Assembly (NCBI GenBank): GCA_028277185.1
Contig: JANQGQ010000002.1
Location: forward strand, 1-64,000
From: Woeseiaceae bacterium
GTDB taxonomy: Bacteria; Pseudomonadota; Gammaproteobacteria; Steroidobacterales; Woeseiaceae
DNA length: 64,000 bases
Direction: 5' to 3'
Position numbers and translations under genes: made by a program. The notes beneath the pieces are model-generated. The model was not told where the DNA came from. It ran no database searches and worked only from the letters and a program-made list of their open reading frames with translations. Numbering within the stretch: position 1 is the stretch's first letter; the number at the start of each line of letters is the position of its first letter. Positions 33,863-40,221 of this stretch are shown piece after piece.

Positions 33863-34203
33863 TGTTGGCAACCAGGCGGATCGCGGGACGGGGCCGTAGA
33901 TTAGCAGTTCGAAATCCCTTTGCGACAGAGCCTTGCGCTCCCCTTGCTCGTTCAGCAAACCGGCCGGGGTTTGCGCATTTTGCCGCGGCAAATTTCGGGC
34001 CGGGCAAGCCGATTCGGCCGTCGCCATATGCCGACAAGGCAAAAACAAGCGGCTAACCATACTGTTATCGCAACTAGCTGAGATACGACGTCAAAAACCT
34101 GTCTGGTAATCGCGACAGCCTTCCTTGAATCGCCGCTTCGACGCCCGCCAGGTATTCGAGCTTCCGGCCATAAGCGTCTGTTTGACAATAAGTTGCTTTC
34201 GAG
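33863..34203. other. intergenic region between gltX and the sigma-54 site
   Basis: 341 bp with no supported gene. It should contain the gltX promoter (minus strand) and any enhancer sites for the sigma-54 promoter at 34204. CCGCTTCGACGCC at 34133-34145 recurs, inverted and with one change, at 39524-39536 upstream of the other sigma-54 site. I saw no tRNA. Confidence 0.4.
34133..34145 (+). promoter_or_regulatory. candidate activator-binding motif upstream of a sigma-54 promoter
   Basis: CCGCTTCGACGCC, ending about 60 bp before the -24 element at 34205. The copy at 39524-39536, read on the minus strand, matches 12 of 13 bases. Position fits an enhancer-binding-protein site, but the match is short and could be chance. 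Confidence 0.25.
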
Positions 34204-34219
34204 TGGCATGGTGCTTGCT
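34204..34219 (+). promoter_or_regulatory. sigma-54 (RpoN) type promoter for the riboswitch-controlled lipoprotein gene
   Basis: TGGCATGGTGCTTGCT fits the consensus TGGCACGN4TTGCW with a single change (T for C at the sixth base) and exact -24 GG / -12 GC spacing. It points toward the two riboswitches and the lipoprotein gene. Transcription would start near 34230 and give a leader of about 530 nt. Confidence 0.65.
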
Positions 34220-34360
34220 TCTTTACTCTGGCGTTCGCGTCTTTCGCTTGGGCAAAGCTTTCGACACATCGCCAAACCGTGATCGACCGCACACTATTGC
34301 AGTTGCAGGTCGATTTATGTCTCATACGCGTTGTTGGTGGTTCCGGCGACCGAGATACTC

Positions 34361-34446
34361 GGCACCGTGTCAAAGGCAAACCTGTCGAAAGGCAGGGACG
34401 CAAAGCTTCCGGTCTACGGGCTTCGGCCTAAGATAGCGGGGTCGCC
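34361..34446 (+). ncRNA. cyclic-di-GMP-I riboswitch (GEMM-I), first of a tandem pair
   Basis: The conserved core is almost textbook: GGCAAACC (34375-34382), P2 closed by a GAAA tetraloop (CCTGTCGAAAGGCAGG), then GGACGCAAAGC, a P3 arm with a CCTAAGATAG receptor-like strand, and GCGGGG before the closing GGTCGCC. P1 pairs GGCACC with GGTCGCC, leaving one bulged C. By manual alignment to the Vibrio Vc2 RNA, the position that contacts the ligand (G20) is G, which favours c-di-GMP over cyclic AMP-GMP. Confidence 0.92.
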
Positions 34447-34527
34447 GAATAGAGCGCCTTAACGGCGCACGATTCGACAGTCGTCGAGTTCGTCTATCCG
34501 CATACCCGCGATCGCCGGAGCATGAGC

Positions 34528-34547
34528 GCCGTTACGGGAGTAACGGC
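34528..34547 (+). other. perfect 8-bp hairpin between the two riboswitches
   Basis: GCCGTTAC, loop GGGA, GTAACGGC. No T-tract follows, so it is not a classical terminator. A smaller hairpin, GCGCC-TTAAC-GGCGC, lies at 34453-34467 just after the first aptamer. Both could be folding spacers or parts of the expression platform. Confidence 0.5.
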
Positions 34548-34566
34548 ACGAATGCATCAACAAACG

Positions 34567-34657
34567 AGTTTTCTGAAAAGGGCAAGTTCGTCGAAAGGCG
34601 AACACGCAAAGCGACCGGTCCGGCTCTTTCCCCGGACGGCGGCGCTGCCAGAGAATT
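34567..34657 (+). ncRNA. cyclic-di-GMP-I riboswitch (GEMM-I), second of a tandem pair
   Basis: AGTTTTCTG (34567-34575) pairs with CAGAGAATT (34649-34657) as a 9-bp P1 with two G-T pairs. Inside it: GGGCAAG, a P2 with GAAA tetraloop (GTTCGTCGAAAGGCGAAC), ACGCAAAGC, and a long P3 (CCGGTCCGG ... CCGGACGG). More diverged than the first copy at the bases just after GGCAA, but the helix pattern and core words are kept. The G20-equivalent is G. Confidence 0.82.
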
Positions 34658-34730
34658 GCTGACGGACGACGTCGCGTGCACTTGAATCGTCCTGATGCCA
34701 GCAGCGCTGTACTAACGGTTTGCCGACGCT

Positions 34731-34752
34731 TGCCCGATTCGTTGGACGGGCA
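34731..34752 (+). promoter_or_regulatory. hairpin just upstream of the lipoprotein start codon
   Basis: TGCCCG (34731-34736) pairs exactly with CGGGCA (34747-34752), six bases before the ATG at 34759. The right arm includes the only purine-rich, ribosome-site-like stretch (GACGGGCAGAG). A second inverted repeat, GGACGA (34664-34669) with TCGTCC (34687-34692), lies between it and riboswitch 2. These could form a translational expression platform. Confidence 0.5.
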
Positions 34753-34758
34753 GAGCAT

Positions 34759-35712
34759 ATGCGGCTTAAACCAGGTTACGTTGCAAAACGGTTTTCTCTG
34801 ATCTTACTCGGCGGCGCCATGAGCGGCTGCCTGAGCAGCGGCGACGACGACGGCGACAATACGTTTACGGACCCGGGGGATACCGCGACAAACGAGCCGC
34901 CGTCGCTTTCCGGCTCGCCGCCTAACAGCGTCGAGACCGGCAATATGTACCGCTTCGAGCCAACGGCGTCGGACCCGGACGGTGACACCATCACGTTCTC
35001 CGTCGACAACAAACCCACCTGGGCAGACTTCGATTCGCAGACGGGCGAATTGAGCGGACGGCCGGTCCTCGGCAACGAGGGCACCTACAACGGCATCAGG
35101 ATTCAGGCAAGCGACGGCAAGGATACTGCTTCACTCAGCTTCTCGATAACGGTCACGGGAGCGGACAGCGGCGCAAATCAGCCGCCGTCGCTGTCGGGGT
35201 CCCCGACTACGTCCGTGAAGGTCGGTGAGCAGTACGCCTTCACGCCGACGGCAACCGATCCCGATGGGGATTCGATCAGTTTCTCGGTCGCCAACCTGCC
35301 GTCCTGGGCCGGTTTCAGCAATCAGGACGGCAGCATCTCCGGCACGCCCGATGCCGGCAGCGAGGGCACATACAGCAACATCACGATCACGGCGTCGGAC
35401 GGGACCGCCACCGATACGCTGACGTTTTCGATTGAGGTCACCACCGTTGCGAATGGCAGCGTTACGCTGTCATGGTCGGCGCCGACCGAGAACGAGGACG
35501 GAACGACGCTGACGAACCTCGCGGGTTTCAAGCTCTACTACGGCACGGAAACCGGGCGCTACACGGAGACGATCGACATAGACAATCCGGGAGTCAACAC
35601 CTACGTCGTCGAAAACCTGACCCCGGATACGTACTTCTTTGCCGCCACCGCTTACAACACCGACGGTATCGAAAGCGAGTTCAGCGAGGAAATTGAGAAA
35701 GTAAGCAACTAG
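34759..35712 (+). CDS. lipoprotein with two Ig-like (He_PIG) domains and one FN3 domain
   Basis: 317 residues. Lipoprotein signal ending LLGGAMSGC, a Ser/Asp-rich linker (LSSGDDDGDN), Ig-like domain 1 (about 40-135, with PSLSGSPPNSVETGNMYRFE), Ig-like domain 2 (about 140-225, PSLSGSPTTSVKVGEQYAFT) and an FN3 domain (about 230-317, SVTLSWSAPTENEDG...). The two Ig domains are clear internal duplicates with a DPDGDTITFSV / DPDGDSISFSV core. The frame can be opened at TTG 34720, but the ATG at 34759 begins the signal. Probably outer-membrane anchored and adhesive. Controlled by a sigma-54 promoter and two c-di-GMP riboswitches. Function not known; convergent with prsK. Confidence 0.8.
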   Translation: MRLKPGYVAKRFSLILLGGAMSGCLSSGDDDGDNTFTDPGDTATNEPPSLSGSPPNSVETGNMYRFEPTASDPDGDTITFSVDNKPTWADFDSQTGELSGRPVLGNEGTYNGIRIQASDGKDTASLSFSITVTGADSGANQPPSLSGSPTTSVKVGEQYAFTPTATDPDGDSISFSVANLPSWAGFSNQDGSISGTPDAGSEGTYSNITITASDGTATDTLTFSIEVTTVANGSVTLSWSAPTENEDGTTLTNLAGFKLYYGTETGRYTETIDIDNPGVNTYVVENLTPDTYFFAATAYNTDGIESEFSEEIEKVSN

Positions 35713-35738: not shown

Positions 35739-37826
35739 TCAGACCGCGGCCCGCGCGGCATCCCGCGTTGCCGACGATTTCTCGACGGGCAGGCGAATCG
35801 AAAACGTCGTGCCCTCGCCCTCCACGCTCTGAACGTCGACGGAGCCGCCGAAAGACCGTACCGTCTCGCGGATCTGGTAAGCGCCGATACCCATGCCCTG
35901 CGCGCCTTTCGTGCTGTCGAAAGGCTTGAACAGGCGCTCGCGCACGAACTCCGGCGTCATCCCGGCGCCCTCGTCGACGATGTCGATCCGATAGCAGTCG
36001 GCCTCGTCGGCAACCGCGACGGTGACCTTACCGTCGACCGGCGTCGCGTCCTGGGCGTTGCGGATCGCGTGAACGACAGCCATCTGCAGGCGATCCCGGT
36101 TGCCCCGCACCCAAAGCCTTGCATCCCCAATGTGGGTAGTCGGTTCCGGCCGCCGATCGGCACACATCGAAACGGCGGTCATGACGGTTGCGCCGAGTTC
36201 GACGCGATCGGTCGCGGGACGAACCGAGTTCTGGCGTAGCTGCTCCATGACCTGCTTCATTCTCAGCACGCCGCCGCGGATGGTCTCTATCGCATCCGCG
36301 ACGAAGGCCGGGTTGCCGCTGTGCTTGCGCGCGTTTTCGACGAGCAGGGACTGCTGCGCTATGACGTTCTTGAGGTCGTGCATGAGGTAAGCCGTGAGCC
36401 GATTGTAGGCTTCGAACTGGCGGCTTTGCGCTAACAACTCCGTCGCCCGCTCCTGCGCCAGATGGCCCGCTATCTGGCGACCCGCGGTCTTCAGCAGATC
36501 GCGATCCTCGTAGGTCATCGAGATGCCGTCCGCGGGACGGTCCAGCGCGACCACCCCGATCAGGGATTCACCGTCGATCAGCGGCACGAGCAATCCATCT
36601 TCACCGACGCCGAACGAGGCCGCATCGGCGTCCAGCGACTCGTACCGGCTCGGATGCGCCGAATACTCGGCGAGATCGACAATCCAGCCTTTCGCCTCGA
36701 AGAACCCAGTAAGCCCGGCTGCCGGCAACGGCGAAAAGCGGTCGCTTTTCCTGTTCCAGCCGCAGGCAGGCTGCAGTTCGCCCTGATCTCTGTCGAGGAG
36801 CCAAAGAAGCCCGGCTGCAGAGTCCGTGATGTCGCAAAGTGCCTTGACGGCGCATTTCTGCAGCGGCAAACCACCTTCACGTCGGGTTAGCGTCCGGATC
36901 AGACGCAACCATTCCGTACGGTAGTCGTACTTGTTCTCGAAGAAGTGCTTGGAGAAAAACGTTCTGGTAGCGCGGCGAATGCGCAATGACGAGAGCAGCA
37001 CCACCAGCGCGAGCAGCGCGGCGGCGAGAAAGACGATGTGAGCGATGCTGCCCCACGACTGGCCCGTTGCCCGCAGCCACTGACCGACGAAACCCACGAC
37101 AGTCAGGTAGACGCCCGCAGCGACGATCGTCGTCGAATAGAACACCACGTGGCGGGACACGAATATGCCGCCAGCCCATATCGGAGACCGGCGCAACGCA
37201 AGCACGATCAGCGGCAGCGTCAGCGCGACGACGAAACCGCGAGCTATCCACAACTCGGCTGAAATCGCGCCCGCGGCGACCGACAGGGAATACAGCGTCA
37301 GATCGTAGAGAAACAGCGTGGCGACCCCGAGGCACAAGAACTTGATACCTCGGCGCTGCCCGGCTCGCGCGTTGCGGAACACCTGCTCGACTACGACGAG
37401 CCCGGCAAGCGATGTCAGGATCTGCCCCGGAATGAGGGCGGATGCAGTGCCCGCAGACTCGCCCTCGCCGAGCATGGCGAGGCCGACGCCTACCGCGACG
37501 ACGAGCGCGCCGAGAACGACGGCACCGTAGCGAAGCAAGTTGGCCGTGGTCCCGCCCAGCGCTCCCGCCATCAGACTCGATAGGAAGATCAGCCAGACGA
37601 GGTCGAGACCTGATTCGAGTAAGAACACGATCAGCGGCCGCGGCGCGGCCAGTACGGCACCGGCCGCGTACGCCATTCCCCAAACGGACGTTACGACGAG
37701 GGCAAGCGAGAGCGCCCTGCTCTGCAGACGTTGCTTGTACCGTGTGAGCGTAAGCGCGGCGAGAATCGCGAAGCCGACCGCAACCAGGCCGTAACCCGAT
37801 GCCTCGATGAAGAGCCTGACGTCCAA
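35739..37826 (-). CDS. prsK: PEP-CTERM system sensor histidine kinase PrsK
   Basis: 695 residues, start TTG (the only start near the upstream stop in this frame). About nine membrane segments in the first ~290 residues, a GAF-like domain (about 330-450), then the kinase: H-box YLMHDLKNVIAQQ, N-box AIRNAQDATP, G-boxes DEGAGMTPEF and GMGIGAYQI. This architecture is diagnostic of PrsK. The partner response regulator PrsR, a sigma-54 activator normally encoded next to it, is absent here: downstream is the convergent lipoprotein gene. PrsK with PrsR and RpoN is reported to drive PEP-CTERM protein genes in floc-forming bacteria. It follows the sugar-transferase gene by 12 bp. Confidence 0.92.
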   Translation of the reverse strand: MDVRLFIEASGYGLVAVGFAILAALTLTRYKQRLQSRALSLALVVTSVWGMAYAAGAVLAAPRPLIVFLLESGLDLVWLIFLSSLMAGALGGTTANLLRYGAVVLGALVVAVGVGLAMLGEGESAGTASALIPGQILTSLAGLVVVEQVFRNARAGQRRGIKFLCLGVATLFLYDLTLYSLSVAAGAISAELWIARGFVVALTLPLIVLALRRSPIWAGGIFVSRHVVFYSTTIVAAGVYLTVVGFVGQWLRATGQSWGSIAHIVFLAAALLALVVLLSSLRIRRATRTFFSKHFFENKYDYRTEWLRLIRTLTRREGGLPLQKCAVKALCDITDSAAGLLWLLDRDQGELQPACGWNRKSDRFSPLPAAGLTGFFEAKGWIVDLAEYSAHPSRYESLDADAASFGVGEDGLLVPLIDGESLIGVVALDRPADGISMTYEDRDLLKTAGRQIAGHLAQERATELLAQSRQFEAYNRLTAYLMHDLKNVIAQQSLLVENARKHSGNPAFVADAIETIRGGVLRMKQVMEQLRQNSVRPATDRVELGATVMTAVSMCADRRPEPTTHIGDARLWVRGNRDRLQMAVVHAIRNAQDATPVDGKVTVAVADEADCYRIDIVDEGAGMTPEFVRERLFKPFDSTKGAQGMGIGAYQIRETVRSFGGSVDVQSVEGEGTTFSIRLPVEKSSATRDAARAAV

Positions 37827-39233: not shown

Positions 39234-39618
39234 TAGGAGTTTGTTGGATTGCTTAGTTGAGAGCTGCGAAGGCTACAGGGGTCATGTGACCGGCAAATGT
39301 AAGTATATGCGGAGCGAACGACCCTTACCGTGAAGGCCTCGACGTTCAGCCCTGTGAGCTCCGTCATAAACCGCAGGCCGCTCCGGTATCGGGTTGCTCG
39401 CCCAACGATGATAGTTATGTCAAGCAGATTAACAACTTGTTTCAATAAGCTTAGCCAAAAATGCAGCTACTTGCCGAGAATTTCCCGGCTCCGCCCGCGG
39501 ACACGGGCAGCCAGCGCCCGCCCGGTGTCGAAGCGGGTGTCGGGGCTCTTTACATTAATCGCGCGGCGGCGCGGCTACACTTAGCTTAACCCAATGTTTT
39601 GTAAAGCTTTTCGAAGTT
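39234..39618. other. intergenic region with divergent promoters
   Basis: 385 bp between the sugar-transferase gene (minus) and the sigma-54 site of the PEP-CTERM gene (plus). It contains several small hairpins (AGCCGGGAAATTCTCGGC on the minus strand near 39474-39491) and the motif GGTGTCGAAGCGG at 39524-39536. No gene or RNA was recognised. Confidence 0.4.
39524..39536 (-). promoter_or_regulatory. inverted copy of the candidate activator motif
   Basis: GGTGTCGAAGCGG on the plus strand, read on the minus strand as CCGCTTCGACACC, differs from 34133-34145 by one base. It lies about 83 bp before the -24 element at 39620. Only two examples exist in the window, so this is suggestive only. Confidence 0.25.
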
Positions 39619-39634
39619 TGGCACAAAACCTGCC
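39619..39634 (+). promoter_or_regulatory. sigma-54 (RpoN) type promoter of the PEP-CTERM gene
   Basis: TGGCACAAAACCTGCC has the -24 TGGCAC element intact and GC at the exact -12 position (CTGC for TTGC). Transcription would begin near 39645, giving a 40-nt leader before the ATG at 39685. Matches the PrsK/PrsR-RpoN control known for PEP-CTERM genes elsewhere. Confidence 0.75.
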
Positions 39635-39684: not shown

Positions 39685-40221
39685 ATGCTGCATTTCCGGA
39701 AAATCCTGCTTGCCACCGCAGCGCTGGCCGTGCTCGGTCTGTCACCGACCGTCAGCGCAACGCCTGTCGGCTACGAGTACAACGGCATTTGCGTTCTGGA
39801 CTGCGATTCGATCGATCTCAACCCCGGGGATTCCGTCTTCGGCTTCCTGGAGTTCGACGACAGCGCACTGGACGATTTCGTATTGTCCGGCGACGAGATT
39901 GGCTTCTATCTCTTCGGGTTCGGGGACCTGATTTTCGACAACACCGACTCCGGCATCTTCGGCTTTCTGAACCTCGACAGCGCCTACAACGTCATCGGCG
40001 GGTTTCTCAGGATGGGACGCATCGTCGACGCGGCGAACACGCTGACGTTCACGCCGGACGGCGGCGGCGTCTGGACCGTCCGCGCCGGGATCAGGAACGC
40101 CCAGTTCGCGGGTGGGATCGGTCGCTACTCACCCGTTTCCGTTCCGGAGCCCGGCACGCTGGCACTGCTCGGACTCGGCTTGCTGGGGCTCGGCTTCGCC
40201 CGCCGCTTCCGGCGCGTCTGA
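39685..40221 (+). CDS. PEP-CTERM sorting domain protein
   Basis: 178 residues. Signal peptide (RKILLATAALAVLGLSPTVSA), an acidic middle region rich in Asp, Phe and Gly with no known enzyme motif, and a canonical C-terminal sorting tail: VPEPGTLALLGLGLLGLG followed by FARRFRRV. The tail is the exosortase A recognition, membrane and basic segments, so this is a probable XrtA substrate. Ribosome site GAGGA ten bases before the ATG. Only two Cys, close together near the N-terminus (ICVLDC). It is monocistronic, between a sigma-54 promoter and an intrinsic terminator. Its role in the matrix is unknown. Confidence 0.92.
   Translation: MLHFRKILLATAALAVLGLSPTVSATPVGYEYNGICVLDCDSIDLNPGDSVFGFLEFDDSALDDFVLSGDEIGFYLFGFGDLIFDNTDSGIFGFLNLDSAYNVIGGFLRMGRIVDAANTLTFTPDGGGVWTVRAGIRNAQFAGGIGRYSPVSVPEPGTLALLGLGLLGLGFARRFRRV

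Follow-up and report, generated by a model that had tools for sequence, protein, structure and literature searches.

The locus considered here lies in a window of 64,000 nucleotides (nt), meaning the whole stretch of DNA that was analysed, from a 4.4-Mb draft genome of a Woeseiaceae bacterium in 44 contigs (contig JANQGQ010000002.1), where one putative lipoprotein gene is preceded by a sigma-54-type promoter and by two class I riboswitch aptamers for cyclic di-GMP (c-di-GMP-I aptamers). We suggest, with a probability of roughly 0.5, that this is a leader with layered control, in which sigma-54, two aptamers and a translational switch at the start site govern one putative surface lipoprotein. 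The aptamers, the sigma-54 site with its comparative support, the activator box upstream of it and the complementarity between aptamer cores and start region can all be read in the DNA itself. A more specific version is put forward only tentatively: the two aptamers may converge on one translational platform, each through a separate anti-core element, on a transcript whose synthesis would depend on sigma-54 and a pilin-like activator box, and perhaps on a CRP-family protein as well.

A sequence-only reading of the window had described a textbook GEMM-I aptamer at 34361-34446 and a second one at 34567-34657, and both were borne out by covariance models (Table 1). Aptamer 1 also exceeded the cut-off of RF03167, at 67.1 bits, and aptamer 2, for which a missing RF01051 hit would have refuted that reading, was matched by this model at 34571-34652 (63.1 bits against a cut-off of 35). 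As each aptamer passed both models, RF01051 and RF03167 overlap; several single aptamers of relatives were also ranked as RF03167. The best match of aptamer 2 by E-value was RF03167, which Rfam labels as the GGC variant, and on that label aptamer 2 might sense another ligand. We consider this highly improbable, as the bit score was higher for RF01051 (63.1 versus 60.5), aptamer 1 and the relatives' single aptamers fit RF03167 too, and the base that would define the variant is absent. The G of consensus GCGAA, taken as the A47G mark of the GGC variant, is A in both aptamers, and aptamer 2 reads GCAAA there by an inferred residue mapping; aptamer 2 was thus rejected as a true GGC variant.

By our reading of the alignments, with a presumed mapping of the Vc2 numbering onto the Rfam consensus, both aptamers keep the counterparts of G20, A47 and C92 of Vc2. 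These three residues are named as c-di-GMP contacts in the available text of PMC4744006. Aptamer 2 is divergent, with a mean identity to other aptamers of 58% versus 71% for aptamer 1. Its stems retain pairing through compensating sequence changes in the alignment. The CUA motif is missing from its P3, a plain helix, so that aptamer 2 lacks the usual tetraloop receptor. Because the contacts are kept and the stems compensated in a divergent aptamer that lacks this receptor, we expect aptamer 2 to bind c-di-GMP, probably with lower affinity. Two further c-di-GMP-I aptamers were present in the same genome (G000:C8:57614-57713 and G000:C44:92966-93046), the latter likewise without the usual P3 receptor sequence. 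The two aptamers of the window are 55% identical to each other, on which ground a recent local duplication was rejected. A hybrid origin, from a sigma-54 unit and a non-sigma-54 unit, was also considered; nearest-neighbour identities failed to separate the classes, and we therefore make no claim on the origin of the tandem.

For comparison, c-di-GMP-I aptamers were assembled from 51 genomes into 112 entries, 111 of them distinct, which comprise both window aptamers, the two others of the same genome and loci from relatives. The entries included 60 fetched stretches, 54 of them taken down a ranked list that itself contained the best rows of a longer list and 6 from another group of loci. A few rows near contig ends were skipped, one leader (G065_C1b) was added after its activator box was in view, and part of the loci entered by lipoprotein similarity, so that lipoproteins are over-represented. 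Leaders were classed as lipoprotein, M23-like or other by regular expressions and reading rather than by domain searches, "M23" being a presumptive label. Three entries stand outside the division into 43 lipoprotein leaders and 66 others: aptamer 2 of the window, a duplicate and a leader truncated at a contig end.

The promoter of the window has GG at -24 and GC at -12 in a near-consensus 16-mer, as the sequence-only reading had held, and its pairing with an aptamer recurs in relatives. Other sigma-54-like sites of the window that keep the GG have two mismatches each. The putative transcription start would lie near 34230. Genome-wide, the bare sigma-54 pattern was not enriched (36 sites versus 67 for the reversed control), and support for the site therefore comes from relatives. 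Sites with at most one mismatch within 260 nt upstream of the aptamer preceded 12 of the 43 lipoprotein leaders, 35 of which were full length and 8 of which had less than 260 nt of upstream DNA, versus none of the 66 others (Fisher p 5e-6). The reverse-strand control in the leader set yielded none. Without the window and the one leader chosen with its box in view, the counts were 10/41 versus 0/66 (p 3e-5); as the leaders are related, Fisher p values serve as a guide only.

Upstream of the promoter, the GTC-N10-GAC box was also shared. In 9 of the 12 sigma-54 leaders such a box began 91-105 nt before the sigma-54 site, at a chance expectation of about 0.004 per leader. The spacings clustered near -92 and near -103, a difference of roughly one turn of the DNA (about 11 bp). 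Elsewhere in the same genome a box of this kind lay within 140 nt of 2 of 30 other sigma-54-like sites, one of which precedes a pilin gene. A search of 101 genomes for the box together with the sigma-54 pattern returned 58 matches in 46 genomes, versus 15 for the reversed control. Thirty of these loci were read: 10 stood before type IV pilin genes and 7, the window included, before lipoprotein genes, the remainder being other genes or chance. In the ten pilin genes of the genus (L167, L169, L174-L179, L183 and L188) the box was mostly about 81-84 nt upstream, with 103 in L174; in the pilin gene of the window's own genome (L149) it lay 74 nt from the sigma-54 site.

PrsR was considered as the activator. 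The PEP-CTERM gene at 39685 is preceded by TTTACA (39549-39554), a 64-nt spacer and the sigma-54 site TGGCACAAAACCTGCC (region 39549-39634), which matches the PrsR motif of 17 nt ending in TTTACA with a mean spacer of 62.8 to the sigma-54 site (PMC1569441, available text). By eye, no TTTACA was seen in the 150 nt before the lipoprotein's sigma-54 site, where membership of the PrsR/XrtA regulon would call for one. PrsR was rejected as activator of the lipoprotein gene on these motif grounds, the GTC-N10-GAC box being present instead, and the activator is more likely PilR-like or unknown than PrsR. As the pilin boxes do not share their inner bases with those of the lipoprotein genes, a PilR-like activator is a lead only.

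A further element upstream of aptamer 1 is CRP-like. Sites with at least 8 of the 10 bases of what we take to be the CRP consensus occurred 70-73 nt before the aptamer in 10 of the 40 lipoprotein leaders with enough upstream DNA, versus 0 of 66 others (p 3e-5). As this spacing is fixed among relatives, it suggests a second, CRP-family promoter with a start downstream of the sigma-54 start and before aptamer 1, so that transcripts from the two starts would alike include both aptamers. No ordinary sigma-70 promoter turned up when 34060-34800 was scanned. CRP-like sites were rejected as a rule of sigma-54 leaders, only 5 of 12 having one at 70-73 nt. Other leaders of the set showed upstream elements of their own. 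Many non-sigma-54 lipoprotein leaders (L074, L048, L055, L201 and others) carried, by eye, a block like GTCGC.AATTTGAGACAGGTTTTTTTT...AATAGTGTTA, which may be a promoter and operator of an unrecognised kind. It lay some 10-60 nt before the aptamer and in certain leaders farther away; by eye, this promoter-like block was not seen in the window's linker before aptamer 2. In many genomes of the genus, a c-di-GMP-I aptamer also precedes the gene of a 310-amino-acid protein starting MNVVIFGKG (L025, L033, L072, L192 and others), presumably M23-like, with a GTGAC...GTCACC palindrome often 50-52 nt upstream of the aptamer.

Table 1. Features of the lipoprotein leader and its surroundings (window positions)
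Feature	Position	Strand	Remarks
GTC-N10-GAC box, putative NtrC-type activator enhancer site	34101..34116	+	starts 103 nt before sigma-54 site
Sigma-54 (-24/-12) promoter TGGCATGGTGCTTGCT	34204..34219	+	one mismatch to TGGCACGN4TTGCW
CRP-like site	34278..34293	+	8/10 consensus bases; 71 nt before aptamer 1
c-di-GMP-I aptamer 1	34365..34449	+	RF01051, 79 bits vs cut-off 35, E 7e-14
Aptamer 1 core GGCAAACC	34375..34382	+	
Linker between aptamers	34450..34571	+	strongly structured, z -3.0
8-bp hairpin with GGGA loop, inside linker	34528..34547	+	stretch 34505-34560, z -3.2
Possible 36-codon leader open reading frame through aptamer 2	34553..34663	+	GGGAG upstream; significance uncertain
c-di-GMP-I aptamer 2, divergent	34572..34653	+	RF03167, 60.5 bits vs cut-off 59
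Aptamer 2 core GGGCAAG	34580..34586	+	
GGTTTGCC, complement of aptamer 1 core	34717..34724	+	
Start-site hairpin over presumed ribosome-binding site	34728..34756	+	similar place and 5' arm in relatives' lipoprotein leaders
CTTGCCC, complement of aptamer 2 core	34729..34735	+	in 5' arm of start hairpin
Putative lipoprotein gene, 317 amino acids	34759..35712	+	lipobox read by eye
prsK, XrtA/PEP-CTERM histidine kinase	35739..37826	-	TIGR02916, 653.5 bits; convergent with lipoprotein gene

How the aptamers would act depends on what follows each of them. The sequence-only reading had proposed that an RpoN-dependent transcript is filtered twice by c-di-GMP. An RpoN-type promoter followed by two aptamers was indeed found; two separate filters were not, as a simple consensus scan of 34060-34800 for a GC-rich hairpin followed by a U run returned no terminator-like site and the linker held no anti-core complement longer than 5 nt. 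Terminator-based switching was rejected on the first of these results, which suggests that control probably acts at translation, and the two together make it more likely that the aptamers share one start-site platform. Two independent transcriptional switches in series could sharpen the response, as in the triple tandem of Bacillus, and tandem c-di-GMP-I units are known to act in this way (PMC4759541, available text). The strongly folded linker would suit such an arrangement; given that the scan found no terminator, we regard serial switching as improbable, although termination might instead depend on Rho.

The open reading frame (ORF) that runs through aptamer 2, with its stop just past that aptamer, lends itself to a different explanation, in which aptamer 1 controls this ORF and the ribosomes translating it cross aptamer 2 and so gate the main start. 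Its ATG lies about 103 nt past aptamer 1, near the aptamer-to-start distance of many single leaders, the GGGAG lies upstream and the linker hairpin stands just before it. At this G+C content, however, an ORF of 36 codons will often arise by chance, the seven tandem loci found elsewhere in the order showed no consistent counterpart, and no full-length relative of the leader was among the matches listed for 107 family genomes; such coupling is in our judgement also improbable.

The preferred reading, with a translational switch at the start site, rests on the region before the ATG. Two elements there are complementary to the two aptamer cores, GGTTTGCC to that of aptamer 1 and CTTGCCC to that of aptamer 2. 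In shuffles of the 105-nt platform, GGTTTGCC arose in 0.24%, CTTGCCC in 0.8% and both in 0/40000. Relatives without a sigma-54 site pointed in the same direction. An alignment of 17 non-sigma-54 lipoprotein leaders, picked by eye, showed a hairpin such as GGGUUGCCCG...CAGGCUGGAGCRCAACCC-AUG before the start, with the ribosome site in its 3' arm and a 5' arm complementary to the aptamer core GGGCAAACC. Core complements of at least 7 bases were found in 12 of 32 non-sigma-54 lipoprotein leaders (the window's aptamer 2 included), with about 1 expected, and in 0 of 67 other leaders; 9 of the 12 sit 23-36 nt before the start.

Several results weigh against this reading. The hairpin that the sequence-only reading had placed six bases before the ATG is there, with a 6-bp core at 34731-34752, and its energy is no better than that of shuffled sequence (z -0.8); the ribosome site before the ATG is weak. 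The two complements were noticed rather than predicted beforehand, and freer tests of them gave P values of 0.012 and 0.035. Among the 12 sigma-54 leaders, with aptamer 1 tested against the linker side, no core complement of at least 7 bases was found. Folding without ligand in ViennaRNA gave -82.3 kcal/mol for the start-hairpin state versus -76.8 kcal/mol for the state in which aptamer 2 pairs with its anti-core; as the hairpin is thus favoured by 5.5 kcal/mol, the switch would have to be kinetic, or its default off. In 13 relatives, chosen by eye, 75.9% of cells were paired, a value reached in 16/500 shuffles and falling to 31-43% when the pairing was slid, and the covariation score was reached in 11/500 shuffles. 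Only two pairs changed on both sides, with 94/500 shuffles as high, so that these counts would lend the hairpin modest support, and RNAalifold predicted five pairs in 18 leaders.

Aptamer 2 alone could also work the start-site platform, with aptamer 1 a passenger or merely shaping the transcript. Of the other explanations this is the one we take most seriously, and we still consider it unlikely. It would account for a linker without a long core complement, which leaves aptamer 1 without a platform of its own, and for the rule in the family, where the 11 other sigma-54 leaders have one aptamer each; GGTTTGCC could then be left over from a time when it paired with aptamer 2 in a previous form. 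Aptamer 1 is nevertheless the better conserved of the two (79 bits; 71% versus 58% mean identity), unlike a dead copy.

In the layered scheme that we favour, RNA polymerase-sigma-54 at 34204 would be activated by an enhancer-binding protein bound at 34101-34116, while a second start further downstream may be driven by a CRP-like protein. Unbound aptamers would pair with the complementary elements near the start codon, so that ribosomes could reach their site. With the aptamers held folded by c-di-GMP, at least CTTGCCC would be freed to fold over the ribosome site, lowering translation of the lipoprotein. Ligand binding, the switch, its direction and the joint action of both aptamers on one platform are inferred.

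Whether the doubling itself is a general feature was addressed within the family and the wider order. When 107 family genomes were searched with the entire leader, the matches listed showed full-length identity only in the window's own genome and one aptamer only in the others, although a strongly diverged tandem could escape such a search. Forty-five aptamer-bearing loci of the family (43 distinct), among them all 11 other sigma-54 leaders, were scanned with covariance models, and no second aptamer was found within 400 nt. A regular expression for the aptamer core recognised 69 of the 112 known aptamers, and its silence means little. A looser one (104/112 recognised) flagged eight further entries, one a duplicate, and the covariance model found one aptamer each in L004, L055, L057, L084, L213, L240 and L250; the apparent second aptamer in G221:C4 was rejected as a chance core match, the model finding one there as well. 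Elsewhere in the order, tandem aptamers were read at seven loci; the stretches scanned at these loci contained no sigma-54 site. Two of these (L010 and L018, from other families) contain GGUUUGCCC, complementary to the aptamer core, in the linker, as if each aptamer had its own platform. As some relatives pair the same promoter type with a single aptamer, we regard the layout as real, and the doubled aptamer as a local variant of a control system that recurs.

The surroundings of the gene agree with an XrtA locus, which was confirmed in the window by PrsT, PrsK, EpsB2, an export protein and a chain-length protein; the PEP-CTERM gene discussed above belongs to this neighbourhood. The gene prsR lies apart from prsK on another contig (G000:C29:12704-14029, 710 bits), and gltX is divergent on the flank of the lipoprotein gene opposite to prsK. 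The lipoprotein, used as a query of genome contigs, found no named relative. It contains two Ig-like (He_PIG) stretches and one FN3 domain, so that the description of an adhesive Ig/FN3 lipoprotein in the sequence-only reading held for the domains and was unsupported for adhesion. The nearest named matches of GltX were metagenome-assembled genomes (MAGs) at 71-73% identity, one labelled Woeseiaceae. An Rfam search of 20 PrsK loci returned no aptamer, but the locus edge had cut off that of G210, so that absence cannot be concluded from this result. In G210 and G208 an aptamer lies upstream of a lipoprotein gene convergent with prsK, and L252 has an aptamer-lipoprotein gene divergent to gltX; all three carry a single aptamer, with no sigma-54 site in 330 nt of upstream DNA. 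The MAG of L252, whose GltX is 72% identical to that of the window with the aptamer-lipoprotein gene alongside, is labelled Bythopirellula, which we take to be a planctomycete name, and the label is probably wrong.

Taken together, more is learnt from the recurring pairing of sigma-54 and c-di-GMP-I control before lipoprotein genes than from the doubling. The locus points to a regulon of Woeseiaceae-like bacteria, a set of Ig/FN3 lipoprotein genes that would be under sigma-54 and c-di-GMP together and whose activator box has the form of one also present before pilin genes. If the two aptamers do converge on one platform, a single leader would join up to three signals, with a c-di-GMP threshold at one start codon. 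The joint action of pilus-linked activators and c-di-GMP on one mRNA, and the sharing of one ribosome-site switch by two aptamers, thereby become testable, and anti-core pairing (GGUUUGCC versus GGCAAACC) could serve as a simple predictor of expression platforms in many such leaders.

The sequence-only reading had known of no XrtA locus so arranged. Tandem c-di-GMP-I pairs are common, and c-di-GMP riboswitches beside PEP-CTERM genes have been published (PMC9481103, PMC12530212). Among the papers listed in searches of an open-licence library, none was seen to bring sigma-54, c-di-GMP-I and lipoprotein leaders together. A survey counted 347 doublets and 12 triplets of c-di-GMP-I aptamers, doublets outnumbering those of any other riboswitch class surveyed, and its Table 1 apparently lists known tandems with separate platforms (PMC9481103, available text). 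In Methylophaga, c-di-GMP riboswitches lie beside PEP-CTERM genes in an exopolysaccharide region, but as four separate riboswitches, each flanking its own gene, and with no link to sigma-54 in the accessible part of the paper (PMC12530212). RpoN control of a PEP-CTERM gene has been shown (PMC9850573), and the RpoN/PrsR-controlled PEP-CTERM genes likewise combine sigma-54 with an upstream enhancer motif beside prsK in an XrtA locus (PMC1569441, PMC9850573, available portions); the PrsR motif, however, ends in TTTACA and stands before the window's PEP-CTERM gene, whereas the lipoprotein gene has GTC-N10-GAC. The triple tandem of Bacillus, which gives sharper control, likewise places several class I aptamers in one leader before surface-protein genes. 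Its units are described as complete switches on transcription (PMC4759541, available text), whereas the window has no terminator-like site and its elements point to one translational platform; sigma-54 control goes unmentioned in the available text of both tandem papers (PMC9481103, PMC4759541). Vc2 of Vibrio cholerae, a translational OFF c-di-GMP-I riboswitch (PMC9262584, accessible text), is likewise a class I aptamer acting on translation; that paper cites a reference with a title on the masking of a ribosome-binding site at a distance. Vc2 has a single aptamer, whereas the window presents two, with different anti-core elements.

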